Shown: positions 19,920 through 57,603 of the stretch, piece by piece
Layout of the letters: every line of letters begins with the position of its first letter
Numbering within the stretch: the first letter of the stretch is position 1
Source of the DNA: Exiguobacterium sp. Leaf196
GTDB lineage: Bacteria > Bacillota > Bacilli > Exiguobacteriales > Exiguobacteriaceae
Assembly (NCBI RefSeq): GCF_001423965.1
Contig: NZ_LMPV01000009.1
Coordinates: forward strand, 124,001 to 188,000
DNA length: 64,000 nucleotides
Direction: 5' to 3'
The notes under the pieces: generated by a model
What the model saw: the letters and a program-made list of their open reading frames with translations, nothing else
The model's database searches: none
Told to the model about the DNA's origin: nothing
Position numbers and translations under genes: made by a program

Positions 19920-20906
19920 TCACCCTGTCGCAAGTAGTCCAAGGTAGATCAGACTGACACTAAGAAGGCTCAGCAAGACACCCACTGCATGTCGTCTGAA
20001 TCCGAGTAAGAGCAGTGGTAAGGTGGCGATCCCCATCATCAAGACCCACCCGTCCCCTGCTGGACCACTGACCGGTAGTTGACCTAACGTCGGTTGTTCC
20101 AAACGACTGAGTGATGCACTTGCCATGAACAGAAGTATTAAAATAATACTCTCCATCCGGAGTAACGGACGCGAATCGTATGTCGAGTCGAAACGTAACC
20201 GACGCCGGACAAGCGTGCCATTACAAAAGGCGTAGAACAAAAGCGGCAACAACAAAAGATGCTTCAGCAACATGGCTTGACCGTATGGCACGCCCCATAG
20301 ATTCGGATAACGTTCAAGCGGAATTGCCAGTTGCATCAGCAACAGACCTGACAGAATGACACCGGCAAAAGCAATCCGGGCAAACGGACTGAACCAGTTT
20401 AAAAAGACGGACCAATTCTCGGTCGAACGGGCACCAACAGCTACCCAAAACACAACACCGATCCAAGCCGTCACACATAAAAAGTGACTGAACTGAAGCG
20501 TCCACCCAAGCGCCCCGTATTTCGCTGCGGCATGACTCGTTCCTGCAATGCCAATCCATATCGGGATCGTCAAGAGTGCGAGTAGGACGGACCGATGTTT
20601 TCGCCAAGCAAGTACGATCAATAAGAGTAAGACAGCGAAGTAAACGACAAGAAACATCCGACCGATATGCAAAAATAATCCTGTCCGTAGAGCCTCCGTC
20701 ATCGTTTGTGTCGAATGTAGAAAACGAACGGCACTGATGATTGGAATACTCGTTCCAAGAACAAGCATCCCGAGCCCCGCTACCGCCCATGACGTACCAT
20801 CCATTAATGGCGGTTTGTGTTTCGTTGAGATGAAGCATAACACCAGATAACCCATCCAAATCGCTCCACCCATGTAGACAAGTAGTTCTCCTAGAAACGC
20901 ACTCAT
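19920..20906 (-). CDS. copD: CopD family copper resistance membrane protein
   Basis: 328 residues with about eight membrane helices. The CopD region WTLQFSHFLCVTAWIGVVFWVA contains the conserved His-Trp pattern, and other His occur at helix ends (FLHIGRM, LLKHLLLLP). CopD is thought to move copper across the membrane together with periplasmic or surface CopC. The ATG at 20906 overlaps the copC stop by four bases; a longer in-frame start lies within copC. Part of a surface copper cluster from 19920 to 26004. Confidence 0.85.
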   Translation of the reverse strand: MSAFLGELLVYMGGAIWMGYLVLCFISTKHKPPLMDGTSWAVAGLGMLVLGTSIPIISAVRFLHSTQTMTEALRTGLFLHIGRMFLVVYFAVLLLLIVLAWRKHRSVLLALLTIPIWIGIAGTSHAAAKYGALGWTLQFSHFLCVTAWIGVVFWVAVGARSTENWSVFLNWFSPFARIAFAGVILSGLLLMQLAIPLERYPNLWGVPYGQAMLLKHLLLLPLLFYAFCNGTLVRRRLRFDSTYDSRPLLRMESIILILLFMASASLSRLEQPTLGQLPVSGPAGDGWVLMMGIATLPLLLLGFRRHAVGVLLSLLSVSLIYLGLLATG

Positions 20907-21430
20907 ATCGAACGACGACGGAATAAGAGAAGTAAGACGATGCTGACTAATAGTCCACCAACAATCCAAGGAAGAAGCGTCGGAACGAGTCCTTTTGAAA
21001 CAGGTTCAGCTTCTGGGACGACCGCTGCCTTTGTTTCCATTGGCTCTGCTTTTTCAACTGTACTCGCTTCAGTTGTCGCGGCACCCATCACTGTAAATCC
21101 GATCGTTCCTTTCACGGGATGACCATCATCTGAAATCGATGCCCATTTAATCGTGTACTGTCCTTTTTTCAATGGTTTCGAGACGACGGCACTGAGTTCA
21201 TTCCCGATGATGAGCGGTTTCGCAAGCGACTGTTCGACACCGTTCGTATCCACTACACGTAAGGTACTCGTCTTTTCGACAGCCTCACTAAACGTCAAGC
21301 GGATTCGATCGACGGGCTCTGATAACACCGCTCCTTCTGCCGGATTGGAACTTTTGAGACTCGTGTGTGCTTCAACGGAGATGGGAAGCAGACAAATGAG
21401 GAATAGAAGTGCAAATCGGATGATACGCAT
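20903..21430 (-). CDS. copC: CopC domain copper-binding surface protein
   Basis: 175 residues. Signal peptide 1-21 (cut before AHTSLKSSNPAEGA) leaves a mature N-terminal Ala-His, the usual Cu(II) ligand of CopC. The CopC beta-barrel follows with the second ligand region SDDGHPVKGTIGF, then a Glu/Ala-rich linker, a C-terminal membrane helix (about 149-168) and RRRS. So it is membrane anchored. AAAGGAGGT is 7 bases before the ATG. Coupled to copD. Confidence 0.9.
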   Translation of the reverse strand: MRIIRFALLFLICLLPISVEAHTSLKSSNPAEGAVLSEPVDRIRLTFSEAVEKTSTLRVVDTNGVEQSLAKPLIIGNELSAVVSKPLKKGQYTIKWASISDDGHPVKGTIGFTVMGAATTEASTVEKAEPMETKAAVVPEAEPVSKGLVPTLLPWIVGGLLVSIVLLLLFRRRSI

Positions 21431-21493: not shown

Positions 21494-22861
21494 TTATTGT
21501 TGCGGGCGACGACGGAGTGCGAAGAATCCAAGGATCGATGCTGCGGCAATACCAAGCAATGACCACACGATACCTGTCGCCGATGATTCTTGCATACCAC
21601 CGAGACCTGTGTTCGGCATTCCAGATGGCGCACCTTTGAATTTATCTGGGAACTGATCGACGATTGCTGTCGCTGTTCCCTCCCCTACGCCGTACATATG
21701 CGCGTACGCTTCGCGAATCGCTGGGTACGTTTTGTCGTAATCTTTTTCATTGTAGCTATTGAAGGCGAGTAAGAGTTGGTCAATATGGACCTTCAACCCT
21801 TCTTCCAAATCTTTTGCTTTCAAGCGTCCTTCCGTTGCTGCATCGAGGAATGCTGCTTGTTCAACGCGGTACTCATCGAGTTCTTTTACAGCCATGTCGC
21901 GTGCTTGATCATCTTTTGCACCTGTTGCTTTGACGTAGTCGACGAAGTAGCCGATATGGCTCGACCAGATTTTCTTGAATTGTTGTGCTGCTTCACTGCC
22001 GTAAACGGAACCGATTGAAGCCGACAAATCATCTGTATTTTGACTCAAGGCACCGGCTGCTGCGTCAAAGTCCTTTGCACCGTCAATCCCTTTTTGCATC
22101 GCGAGCACCGCAAGCGCTGCGTGCTCTGAGAAGTTCCGGTTGAGCCCGGCACGAAGATCGGCTGCTGGTGTATCGACTTTCGTATTTTTGAATTTGTCCG
22201 GATACTGATCAACGATCGCACCAGATAATCCTTCTCCGACCATATACATATGCTCGATTGCTTCACGTAGATTGCTGTAGGCAGCGTCATAATCACCAGC
22301 AACGTAACTATCAAACGATGTTAACAATTGCGTGATATGGACTTTGAGCCCTTCTTCGAGATCTGCTGCTTTCAATCGCCCGCCTGTTGCTTTATCAAGG
22401 AATGCAGCCTGCTCGACACGGTACTCATCCAAATCTTTCAATGCTTTTTGTTTAGCATCTTCATCTTTTGCTCCAGTCGCTTTGACGTAATCGACGAAGT
22501 AACCGATGTGGCTCGACCAGATATCTTTAAACGCTTTTCCTGCATCATCACCGTAGACAGAACCGACAGCTGCCGCTAAATCATCCGTATTTTGATTCAA
22601 TGCGCCTGCTGCTTGTTCAAAATCTTTTTTACCATCAATCCCTTTTTGCATCGCAACGACTGCGAGATATGCGTGTTCAGATAGAATTTGATCGAGTGTC
22701 GCTCGCAGATCCGATGCTGGAGAGGAGACATCTAGTGAGACTTTTCCTGAACTGTGAGACATTTTACTATGGTCCTCATGACCATGTGCACTGACACCTG
22801 CTGCTGGAATCAACAATGCGGCACTTAGCGGAACAGCGAGATACGACTTTTTCATCTTCAT
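21494..22861 (-). CDS. Duplicated helical surface protein with MPNTG sorting signal
   Basis: 455 residues. Signal peptide (about 1-25) is followed by a His-rich start AHGHEDHSKMSH. Then come two repeats of about 160 residues (near 46-205 and 233-395) sharing SEHAxLAVxAMQKGIDG, SSHIGYFVDYVKATGAK, DEYRVEQAAFLD and the EHMYMVGEG-like end. Each repeat is all-helical with His at matching places, like a metal-binding four-helix bundle. The C-terminus has MPNTGLGG (415-422), a hydrophobic helix and RRRPQQ, a cell-wall sorting signal with Met for Leu. Relatives are often misannotated as copper amine oxidase. Placement beside copCD suggests copper binding; that is inference. Confidence 0.75.
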   Translation of the reverse strand: MKMKKSYLAVPLSAALLIPAAGVSAHGHEDHSKMSHSSGKVSLDVSSPASDLRATLDQILSEHAYLAVVAMQKGIDGKKDFEQAAGALNQNTDDLAAAVGSVYGDDAGKAFKDIWSSHIGYFVDYVKATGAKDEDAKQKALKDLDEYRVEQAAFLDKATGGRLKAADLEEGLKVHITQLLTSFDSYVAGDYDAAYSNLREAIEHMYMVGEGLSGAIVDQYPDKFKNTKVDTPAADLRAGLNRNFSEHAALAVLAMQKGIDGAKDFDAAAGALSQNTDDLSASIGSVYGSEAAQQFKKIWSSHIGYFVDYVKATGAKDDQARDMAVKELDEYRVEQAAFLDAATEGRLKAKDLEEGLKVHIDQLLLAFNSYNEKDYDKTYPAIREAYAHMYGVGEGTATAIVDQFPDKFKGAPSGMPNTGLGGMQESSATGIVWSLLGIAAASILGFFALRRRPQQ

Positions 22862-24158: not shown

Positions 24159-24644
24159 TTAATGATGGTGACCGCTACTTCCACCAGCGGGTTTTGCTCC
24201 ACCTTGTAAGATTTTTAAATCCTGCGCCGACAGTTTTCCGACGATGAATTGCCGTGTCGGCATGATCATCGCACCTTCACTGCTCGCATGCGCTTTGACA
24301 TAATACAAGCCGGATTTCGGTAATGTCTTCGCAATCGTGTAGACACCCGGCTTCGTCTCTTCTGCCGGTTCCATACTATAGCGGACTGTTCCGTCTGCTT
24401 TCCAGATTTCGAAGTGGACATAGTCGACTTTTTGAGCCGGTTTCGCTTCACGCCAAACCGTCGCTTCGAACGTTTGCTTTTTCTTTGCGTCCGGTTGTAC
24501 GTCTTTTGGGATATTCATTTTGATCGATAACGGATGAACGACTGCGTACTGCTCCGCCGCATCAGAATCAACGGCGCAGCCGGCAAGACTCGTCGTCGTG
24601 ACGAGCAGTCCACCAAGCACGAATGTTTGCATCGATTTACGCAT
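24159..24644 (-). CDS. YtkA-like (FixH) domain lipoprotein
   Basis: 161 residues. Lipoprotein signal peptide with lipobox SLAGC (Cys at 23). The mature part is a beta-sandwich of the YtkA/FixH type (PLSIKMNIPKDVQPDAKKKQ, VHFEIWKADG, LPKSGLYYVKAHAS), which includes copper-delivery and cbb3-assembly proteins. It ends in GGSSGHHH, a possible metal site. AAGGAGG precedes the ATG. It overlaps the end of the PepSY gene by 8 bases, so they form an operon next to copCD. Confidence 0.8.
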   Translation of the reverse strand: MRKSMQTFVLGGLLVTTTSLAGCAVDSDAAEQYAVVHPLSIKMNIPKDVQPDAKKKQTFEATVWREAKPAQKVDYVHFEIWKADGTVRYSMEPAEETKPGVYTIAKTLPKSGLYYVKAHASSEGAMIMPTRQFIVGKLSAQDLKILQGGAKPAGGSSGHHH

Positions 24645-26004
24645 TGAAGAACCTCCTTACACTCGGAATACGACGAATGACGAGGAAATCGAGTAACCAG
24701 ACGACGAGCAACGAGAGTCCGACAAGTGGGAAGACAATTCCCAGCACAACAAGCACAGCGAGGAATCCTTTCAACATGAATGCTTTCGGACCTTTTGGTG
24801 CCCCCATCCCCTTACTTGGTTTTCGCTTCAACCACAGATAGAAACCACTGACTGCTACGAGAATGATCCCAAGACAAATCAATAGGCTGATCAATTGGTT
24901 GAACCAGCCGAATTCCGTTCCTTTGTGAAGCGTGATTCCGGTCGCGACGATCTTCCCGACGACGCCATAATTGTCATAGCGATAGTCAGCGAGGACAGCA
25001 CCGGAATATTGATCGAGATGGATCGTTGCTTCATCCTGTGCCTTTGCGGGATACGCGGACAGGGTGTAGACTCCACTCGGATCACTCGGGATGCTGATTT
25101 TAAAGCTTGGGTCCATTCCCTGTTGCTTGCCGATCGCAACGATGTCATCGATCGAAGCCGGAACGGCTCCTTCGACTTTCGACTGAGGGACATCAAGTGT
25201 TTCAGCGGCCCACGGGACTTCTGCGATATCTTTCGTTTGAAGCGTTGAAGTCGGTGCCTCCCCACCCCAGATGGACGGTGGATAGCCCAGTCCTTGGTTC
25301 GTGACGAGTGACTGGAAGTTCGTTCCCCAGAAACCGGACCATGGGAGACCTGTCAGGATGAGGAATAACATTCCTGCTGTAATCCAAAATGCAGGAACCG
25401 CGTGAAGATCACGACGGAATAACTTCTTACCTTGACGAAGACGCGGGAACAAAACACCTGACAGTCCCTTTTGCTTGCGTGGGAACCATAAGAATAATCC
25501 TGTCACGATCAAGACGATTGCCCAACAGGCAACGAGTTCGACAATCCGGTCACCGGTCGTTCCTGCCATCAGTTCTCCATGAATTTCTTCAATTTTGTTC
25601 ATGATTCGATCGTCGTCCGATAATGTTCCGATGATTTTCCCGGAGTACGGATTGACGAAGACTGTCGCCGACATCTTAGGTGACGAGATGTTCACTTCAC
25701 TGGATCGATCGTCCGATTCACCCGGTCGGTATGACGTAACGAGCGCGTCGGGATACTTCGCTTTGACGCGATTGATTTGTTCTGTCGCCGTGATGCGATC
25801 CGCTTTTGGTGTAACTTCATAATACGATTGATACAGGACGTTTTCGATTTGCGGCTTAAATAGATAGATCGATCCTGTCACGGCAAGCATGACGAGGAAC
25901 GGTGCAAAAATGATACCAGCATAAAAGTGCCACCGCCAAATCGTCCGGTAAGCAGAAGAAGTCGGTGCTTTTTTGACCGTCTCTTCCGTCTGCATGAGAT
26001 TCAT
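24637..26004 (-). CDS. PepSY-associated transmembrane protein
   Basis: 455 residues of the PepSY_TM family. TM1 near 25-50 (WRWHFYAGIIFAPFLVMLAVTGSIYLF) is followed by an outside PepSY domain, a pair of helices near 165-235, a second outside PepSY-like region and C-terminal helices. His of WRWHFYAG and EEIHGELM are the usual positions for heme or metal in this family, which is linked to iron or copper reduction. AAGGAGG is 6 bases before the ATG. Operon with the YtkA lipoprotein. Confidence 0.85.
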   Translation of the reverse strand: MNLMQTEETVKKAPTSSAYRTIWRWHFYAGIIFAPFLVMLAVTGSIYLFKPQIENVLYQSYYEVTPKADRITATEQINRVKAKYPDALVTSYRPGESDDRSSEVNISSPKMSATVFVNPYSGKIIGTLSDDDRIMNKIEEIHGELMAGTTGDRIVELVACWAIVLIVTGLFLWFPRKQKGLSGVLFPRLRQGKKLFRRDLHAVPAFWITAGMLFLILTGLPWSGFWGTNFQSLVTNQGLGYPPSIWGGEAPTSTLQTKDIAEVPWAAETLDVPQSKVEGAVPASIDDIVAIGKQQGMDPSFKISIPSDPSGVYTLSAYPAKAQDEATIHLDQYSGAVLADYRYDNYGVVGKIVATGITLHKGTEFGWFNQLISLLICLGIILVAVSGFYLWLKRKPSKGMGAPKGPKAFMLKGFLAVLVVLGIVFPLVGLSLLVVWLLDFLVIRRIPSVRRFFNA

Positions 26005-56186: not shown

Positions 56187-56238
56187 AAAACAGGTCTCTC
56201 TTTTTCGGTCATAGCCGAAGTGAGAGACCTGTTTTTTT
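56185..56238. terminator. Bidirectional terminator, long stem
   Basis: AAAAAACAGGTCTCTC / GAGAGACCTGTTTTTT with an inner CGG..CCG hairpin. It serves hemAT (+) and the sortase operon (-). Confidence 0.95.
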
Positions 56239-56843
56239 TAATTGTCTTGTTCTGCCGTGACGACAAGACGTTGATCGTACCCTTTTGAGTTTGTAAACGT
56301 ACCAATGCATGAAATGAGCGTCAGTTTGTTCATGACGGTCGCACCAAAGATTGATCCGACTGGTGCTTCATCGACAGGATAGGACATGACGTTCGTCACC
56401 ACGTATGACACCTGTTGTCCTGTTTTCCCTGTCACTTCAATCCGTTGCCCTTTTTTCATCTTGGCTAAATCATAAAAGACAGCAGGTCCCTTTTCATCGT
56501 CTAAATGTCCTGCTAATACGACATTTCCGGTTTGACCGGCTTTCGCACCGTATTTATACCACGCGACTTGATCCGTTTTTTTTGGCACATCCATCCGTCC
56601 TTGCTTATCCTTCCCGACGACTTCGATGTTTGCTTTCACATCGAGCGTCGGAATCATAATACGCGTTGGAATGAATGCTTCTTCGTCCACCATTTCGGAT
56701 GAAGTGGACGAAGAAGACGTCGTTTCAGTTTGTTTTGGTTTTTCCGGCTTTGTAGTACCTGGAGGTGATCCCGATTGGCATCCGGCTAATACGAGTAAGA
56801 GAAGCAGACTACTCTTAAGCGTTTTGTTTACGACGGACGACAT
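56238..56843 (-). CDS. Class F-like sortase with lipoprotein signal
   Basis: 201 residues. The N-terminal SSLLLLLVLAGCQSG is a lipoprotein signal with lipobox VLAGC (Cys22), then a Lys/Pro/Ser/Thr linker to about 57. The sortase fold follows with catalytic H113 (LAGHLDD), C179 (LTLISCIGTF) and R192 (YDQRLVV), plus GRMDVPKKTDQVAWYKYG typical of the small class D/F enzymes. It should join surface proteins to the wall, but from the membrane face via a lipid anchor rather than a helix. The ATG overlaps the DUF4397 gene by 29 bases (TAGGA ribosome site), and that protein carries the likely substrate motif MPDTG. Confidence 0.85.
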   Translation of the reverse strand: MSSVVNKTLKSSLLLLLVLAGCQSGSPPGTTKPEKPKQTETTSSSSTSSEMVDEEAFIPTRIMIPTLDVKANIEVVGKDKQGRMDVPKKTDQVAWYKYGAKAGQTGNVVLAGHLDDEKGPAVFYDLAKMKKGQRIEVTGKTGQQVSYVVTNVMSYPVDEAPVGSIFGATVMNKLTLISCIGTFTNSKGYDQRLVVTAEQDN

Positions 56844-57603
56844 ACGCTGTTCCTACTAACAAGGCAGCTGCTGCTGCGACTGCCCATGGTGTAGCAGAAG
56901 TCGTATCAGCAGAACCACCAAGTCCTGTATCTGGCATTGATGCCATTTCACCGCCATCTGGAATTAAGAGAACATCAAACGCTGGCTCGCCTTCTAGTAA
57001 ACCGATTGCGAGAGCTGTATAGTTTTTGCCACTGTCGAGTTTGACGCCATCAAGTGCTTTGACGACATCCGTTGCGCCTGCAGGGCGGACTTCAAGGTCA
57101 TACGTACCTGCATCGAGTGTACCGTAGTCAGAGACTTTTGAGAATTCAAGGTTGCTAAAGAGTGGGTCTCCACCTTTTGGTGCGACATCAACAGCAGGTG
57201 CATCTGGTGCAAAGTGTGCGACACGGACCATTGATTTGCCGTCTTCGCCTTTGCCGTTGTCTTCCATGACAGCAAGTTTAATATCAGCAAGTTTACCGAT
57301 TGCTGCGACAGAATAGAATTTACCAGCTTCCACATTGAGTGTTTGAGAGAGCACAGGATCTTTTGTTGTTCCTGCAGCGAATACTTCTACTTTATGTTCG
57401 CCAGCTGGTAGTGTGAGGTAATCTGTAACATCTTTGAATTTTGCTCCTGATACGGCTTTTTTGCCATCGACCGCGATATCGACTGCCGGAGCATCTGGTG
57501 AAGCATGAATGACACGAACCATTGCGTCATCTGCTGCGCCTACCGGAAGCACGAATAGTGCAAACAGTAACGTAGCAGTCACAAACGATAAGAGTTTCTT
57601 CAT
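56815..57603 (-). CDS. Cell-wall-sorted protein with two DUF4397 domains
   Basis: 262 residues. Signal peptide 1-23 (cut after VGA). Two DUF4397 domains (about 26-113 and 124-212), each starting MVRVIHASPDAPAVDIAV or MVRVAHFAPDAPAVDVAP. The C-terminus has MPDTGLGG (223-230), a hydrophobic helix, and RRKQNA, an LPXTG-like signal with Met for Leu. It is coupled to the sortase, so it is the presumed substrate. A promoter resembling sigma-B is upstream. Function of DUF4397 is unknown. Confidence 0.88.
   Translation of the reverse strand: MKKLLSFVTATLLFALFVLPVGAADDAMVRVIHASPDAPAVDIAVDGKKAVSGAKFKDVTDYLTLPAGEHKVEVFAAGTTKDPVLSQTLNVEAGKFYSVAAIGKLADIKLAVMEDNGKGEDGKSMVRVAHFAPDAPAVDVAPKGGDPLFSNLEFSKVSDYGTLDAGTYDLEVRPAGATDVVKALDGVKLDSGKNYTALAIGLLEGEPAFDVLLIPDGGEMASMPDTGLGGSADTTSATPWAVAAAAALLVGTAYVVRRKQNA

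Follow-up and report, generated by a model that had tools for sequence, protein, structure and literature searches.

Analysis of a 64 000-nucleotide window, covering positions 124001–188000 of contig C9 in a genome of 2.98 Mb, indicated that a gene encoding a DUF4397 surface protein and the adjoining gene of a predicted lipid-anchored sortase probably form a two-gene wall-anchoring module, and that a second MPxTG protein, encoded in a copper cluster of the same window, may be served by this sortase, by a paralogue encoded on contig C10, or by both. The enzyme is a sortase by its fold and catalytic residues; what is new about it is a different anchor that is switchable in evolution. Named relatives of the sortase locus were those of Exiguobacterium (E. 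indicum and E. sibiricum). The features concerned are compiled in Table 1; the coordinates and reading frames given for the three main genes in a preliminary description of this DNA were all correct.

Table 1. Features of the sortase locus and of the copper cluster in the window.
Feature	Position	Strand	Remarks
Class F-like sortase, predicted lipoprotein type	56238..56843	-	Lipobox VLAGC, Cys22; H113, C179, R192; fold model
Lipobox codons L19-A20-G21-C22	56778..56789	-	Invariant residues, synonymous codon change
Overlap of DUF4397 gene 3' end and sortase gene 5' end	56815..56843	-	29 bp, same strand
DUF4397 surface protein, predicted cognate substrate	56815..57603	-	Signal peptide, two DUF4397 domains, MPDTGLGG + helix + RRKQNA
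MPDTGLGG sorting motif, DUF4397 protein	56914..56937	-	Whole tail E 1.7e-16
Stem-loop flanked by A and T runs, AAAAAACAGGTCTCTC...GAGAGACCTGTTTTTTTT	56187..56242	.	Seen by eye; absent from pattern scan listing
Second MPxTG protein, two predicted six-helix repeats	21494..22861	-	Conserved His/Met; MPNTGLGG + helix + RRRPQQ; no adjacent sortase gene
MPNTGLGG motif, copper-cluster protein	21596..21619	-	E 7.3e-15
CopC domain protein, downstream of copper-cluster protein	20903..21430	-	PF04234, 84 bits
CopD-type membrane protein	19920..20969	-	PF05425, 52 bits

The sortase ORF encodes 201 amino acids and begins with MSSVVNKTLKSSLLLLLVLAGC(22)QSGS; C22 and C179 are its only cysteines and H113 its only histidine, and R192 is also present. 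With 77 bits against a cut-off of 26.6 for PF04203, it belongs to the sortase superfamily. H113, C179 and R192 were unchanged across 39 aligned homologues, and the AlphaFold2 model (mean pLDDT 86.7, above 90 through most of the catalytic domain) placed this His-Cys-Arg set on a sortase beta-barrel. The model resembled class A, C, D, E and F sortases to much the same degree (Z 15–17), and the fold therefore does not settle the class. Class F, as proposed earlier, scored best by far (127.4 bits, against 35.8 for class E and 21.0 each for classes C and D), though below the curated class F cut-off (NF033748, 166 bits); the class D and E scores likewise lay beneath their own cut-offs of 165 and 160 bits. 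Because the curated class F cut-off was missed by this sortase and reached in none of the 300 Bacilli genomes searched with the class F model, we use the label ‘class F-like’, and specificity is not transferable from the characterised class F enzymes.

The N-terminus of the sortase, MSSVVNKTLK-SSLLLLLV-LAGC, fits a G+LPP-type pattern, with the basic n-region, short h-region and [LVI][AST][GA]C of Gram-positive lipoboxes, and the ORF contains no other N-terminal helix. Among 14 distinct Exiguobacterium orthologues the residues L-A-G-C (19–22) were invariant, with synonymous change in all four codons, while invariant positions numbered 0/9 in the h-region and 2/35 in the linker. As the Cys22 codon lies outside the gene overlap, the other reading frame does not constrain this cysteine; judged from the codons, purifying selection acts on L-A-G-C. 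The sortase was present in all 19 Exiguobacterium genomes and the lipobox in 18 of them. Selection on the lipobox and its retention among congeners bear out the earlier claim of a lipoprotein-type sortase without a membrane helix, the complete VLAGC and H113, C179 and R192 being found in the ORF translation under the numbering originally given, and support the prediction that a lipid here replaces the helix anchor.

The overlapping DUF4397 ORF encodes 262 amino acids, scores 163 bits with PF14344 over two domains and terminates in SMPDTGLGG-(helix)-RRKQNA; both the gene overlap and this tail agreed with the preliminary description. Its proposed tight coupling to the sortase was corroborated by the finding of an MP[DE]TGLGG DUF4397 gene directly upstream of the sortase in 18 of the 19 Exiguobacterium genomes, and of a DUF4397-MPxTG gene in the same position in several other families. 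The stem-loop beyond the sortase gene is probably a bidirectional terminator that ends the two-gene unit. In the remaining Exiguobacterium genome, G016, neither the DUF4397 gene nor the first ∼35 codons of the sortase were present (L031:1120-2004), and no DUF4397 relative was found anywhere in that genome; as read from this locus, the loss of the DUF4397 gene went together with that of the sortase's lipobox end. The signal-less sortase remnant of G016 adjoins an agmatinase-type gene. The corresponding sortase of a sister genus lacks a lipobox and has a signal-peptide-like N-terminus without Cys, but is still paired with a DUF4397 protein, the motif of which reads APETGQGG; the lipid anchor thus appears dispensable for the pairing. 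In a further genus (L100, L109 and L111), the sortase frame carries a lipobox and no suitably placed upstream ATG, GTG or TTG, which suggests that translation starts at a rare codon or is coupled to that of the DUF4397 gene.

Alignment of 20 partner tails gave the consensus [M]-P-x-T-G-x-G-[G/T], in which Pro, Thr and Gly are invariant and Met and the second Gly reach at least 90%, so that the Met at position 1 singled out in the preliminary description is the usual residue of the class F-like branch. The genome-wide search proposed there for MPxTG tails with helix and Arg residues was carried out with a profile of these tails and returned exactly three clear matches (E 1.7e-16, 7.3e-15 and 1.3e-13), two inside the window and the third on contig C10; the next match (E 0.014) was not a sorting signal, and the shared tail thus goes beyond coincidence. 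Both window proteins combine a pentapeptide, a helix and a basic C-terminal tail, and a loose DNA pattern for PxTG gave background matches only. A standard LPXTG signal on most surface proteins, which would have spoken against a dedicated MPxTG system, was not what we found: the Pfam LPxTG anchor model, applied to the whole genome with E up to 10, detected no clear LPxTG protein, only one plausible signal of another type (LPQAG) and otherwise unrelated proteins. This LPQAG signal, the genome's only one of another type found, belongs to a 533-aa exported protein on contig C10 (L178:11543-13144) that ends in LPQAG + helix + RR and whose gene lies 3.6 kb from that of a helix-anchored class F-like sortase. 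Because MPxTG proteins are partners of lipobox-free sortases of the branch as well, MPxTG is, on the evidence of these pairings, a code of the class F-like branch and not of lipid anchoring.

When the class F model was run on the 300 Bacilli genomes, relatives were found in 70 of them (26 of 118 genera). A lipobox was present in 27 of 58 non-redundant class F-like sortases, from 14 genera and nine families, a count probably one too high as L122, in which further hydrophobic residues come after LIIAC, probably has a helix. By the identical rule none of 29 class D Bacilli sortases, used as controls (30 loci less L201, which has no clear catalytic His), had a lipobox (Fisher p about 1e-6, a value that overstates independence as the sequences are related). 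Each frame was read from the preceding stop codon, because evident lipoboxes with an uncertain start codon escaped a strict G+LPP regular expression. On a maximum-likelihood tree of the sortases the anchor type changed about nine times or more, a figure that is approximate because L111 and L121, whose frames read LVAGC and FLSGC, were labelled as lacking a lipobox, and the partner substrate family changed twice. These distributions are best explained if the class F-like branch of Bacilli has at least two interchangeable anchoring modes, lipid anchoring among them.

Contig C10 of the same genome encodes another class F-like sortase (L002:1219-2151, minus strand), which has a true N-terminal helix (score 2.3) and adjoins a paralogue (41%) of the copper-cluster protein ending in MPNTGNGG. 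A third sortase, on contig C8, scored best with class E (106 bits, below cut-off) and had no visible partner substrate.

The copper-cluster protein itself comprises 455 amino acids and terminates in GMPNTGLGG-(helix)-RRRPQQ, which confirms the tail previously described as MPNTGLGG, helix and RRR. It matched no Pfam or NCBIfam model above cut-off, and was predicted with pLDDT above 90 to fold as two ∼180-residue six-helix repeats. H63 and H175 (26/26 each), M205 (25/26) and H118 (22/26) were conserved from repeat to repeat and among relatives. Comparison with solved structures gave no convincing match, the best (Z 8.7) being a designed protein, an outcome that says little where helical bundles are concerned. 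The protein may plausibly have a role with metals and represents a candidate metal-binding family. Beside the copper cluster, window positions 24159–26004 encode a YtkA-like lipoprotein ending in GHHH and a PepSY-type membrane protein; at L165 and L166 a similar pair adjoins a paralogue of the copper-cluster protein.

Orthologues of the copper-cluster protein were kept in nearly the entire genus, G016 with its broken lipid-anchored sortase included. The orthologue of the deep-branching G006 (64%) ends in MPKTGMGG, and directly after its gene comes that of a lipobox sortase of its own (L042), the two genes being preceded by an RskA/zf-HC2 anti-sigma factor gene. In other families the gene order is ECF sigma factor, anti-sigma factor, copper-type protein and class F-like sortase (L159 and L162; rearranged in L160). 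Such units with a copper-type protein were located at L159:8305-11847, L162:6992-10850, L160:6550-10073 and L158:7194-10069; L160 has a CopC gene some 8 kb away, and there the sorting signal of the copper-type protein has lost its helix. Units of ECF sigma factor, RskA/zf-HC2 anti-sigma factor and sortase could possibly represent an envelope-stress regulon of wall-anchored proteins. Since the relatives in G006 and in other families adjoin a class F-like sortase of their own, the copper-cluster protein most plausibly belongs to a second substrate family and has lost the sortase once next to it, so that it now lies beside CopC/CopD alone.

At the sequence level the anatomy, conservation and pairing of the module are established, and from established knowledge of sortases and lipoproteins its working can be sketched as follows. 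The DUF4397 protein and the sortase would be made from the single overlapping unit, and the sortase would pass through Sec, receive its lipid at Cys22 and be cleaved on the N-terminal side of this residue by lipoprotein signal peptidase. Its beta-barrel domain, which starts at about residue 58, would then hang off the outer membrane leaflet on a free ∼35-residue linker, and the DUF4397 protein would be kept by its C-terminal helix and Arg tail at the very leaflet where the sortase sits. Recognition of MPDTGLGG and cleavage at MPDT|G by C179, H113 and R192 would presumably be followed by transpeptidation of the cleaved DUF4397 protein onto peptidoglycan as the acceptor.

Three other explanations have to be weighed against this scheme, the first of which rivals only the part concerning the copper-cluster protein. 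The lipid-anchored sortase might serve the DUF4397 protein alone and the C10 sortase both copper-type MPNTG proteins, a division of labour to which we give somewhat less than an even chance. The location of the C10 sortase gene beside the copper-protein paralogue is in line with it, as are the tails, which read MPNTG in both copper-type proteins and MPDTG or MPETG in the DUF4397 proteins, and so is G016, which lacks the sortase signal peptide and DUF4397 and has kept both the MPNTGLGG copper protein and the helix-anchored sortase. On the other hand, the residue after TG is L in the DUF4397 and copper-cluster proteins and N in the C10 paralogue, the G006 orthologue adjoins the lipobox sortase L042, and both class F-like sortases of G006 have a lipobox. 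Given the C10 and G016 observations and the adjacent class F-like sortases of this family in other Bacilli, the earlier assignment of the copper-cluster protein to the same dedicated lipid-anchored system is not supported.

That the N-terminus is an ordinary uncleaved signal anchor of a normal helix-anchored enzyme, with Cys22 being incidental, appears improbable. Described sortases are indeed positioned by an N-terminal transmembrane segment (PMC5148588), and both the sister-genus sortase and the C10 paralogue do without Cys; however, the hydrophobic stretch is weak (1.55, against 2.2–2.7 in helix-anchored paralogues on one scale), it is itself variable where L-A-G-C is invariant, and lipoboxes recur in 14 genera. 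We attach a similarly low probability to the possibility that the sortase mainly acts as a hydrolase shedding the DUF4397 protein, or as a joiner of subunits, instead of anchoring proteins to peptidoglycan. The acceptor is not visible from sequence, class F sortases have no known physiological role and a quadruple class F deletion in Actinoplanes had no phenotype (PMC13251363), but each substrate has just one wall-sorting tail, and the transpeptidase-type His-Cys-Arg set does not vary. Peptidoglycan anchoring by a lipid-held sortase remains our preferred reading for the DUF4397 protein.

In a wider picture, which we advance tentatively and regard as rather unlikely, lipid-anchored sortases would be widespread in Bacilli and switch repeatedly with helix-anchored ones, would operate in small substrate–sortase modules joined in some genera by a sigma factor of the ECF type and an anti-sigma factor of the RskA type, and would have as one substrate family a His/Met two-repeat helical wall protein serving under stress from copper or other metals. 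Should lipid anchoring hold for a large branch in Bacilli, the location of its sortases would depend on the lipoprotein pathway (Lgt and LspA), and loss of this pathway would indirectly strip wall proteins. The recurrent anchor switch with the substrate pairing kept amounts to a natural experiment on the purpose of the sortase membrane anchor, and MPxTGxGG can serve as a genome-mining signature for substrates of class F-like sortases. In the open-access literature searched, no paper linked MPXTG or DUF4397 with a sortase, and no lipoprotein sortase in the present sense was described.

Compared with the C10 enzyme, the lipobox sortase shows about 41% identity over the domain and likewise has an adjacent MPxTG partner, but the C10 sortase possesses an N-terminal helix and an extra C-terminal domain, and its partner is of the copper-protein family (MPNTGNGG) instead of DUF4397. 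The window tails share with the LPxTG cell-wall sorting signal (PF00746) the tripartite plan of pentapeptide, helix and basic tail and retain Pro, Thr and Gly, but have Met at position 1 and continue with an x-G-[G/T] block; the DUF4397 protein accordingly lacks Leu at position 1, and scored 14.6 bits with PF00746, below the cut-off of 20. Sortases of classes D and E (Bacillus class D, Streptomyces SrtE, Clostridium perfringens SrtD) resemble the enzyme in fold (4d70, Z 15.6; 5cuw, Z 16.2), whereas the class D controls have a membrane helix in place of a lipobox. Closest is class F (NF033748; actinobacterial, e.g. Propionibacterium acnes SrtF), the best-scoring class and one with the same catalytic residues, from which the sortase described here differs in its sub-cut-off score, its adjacent MPxTG partner and a lipobox in place of the transmembrane helix.
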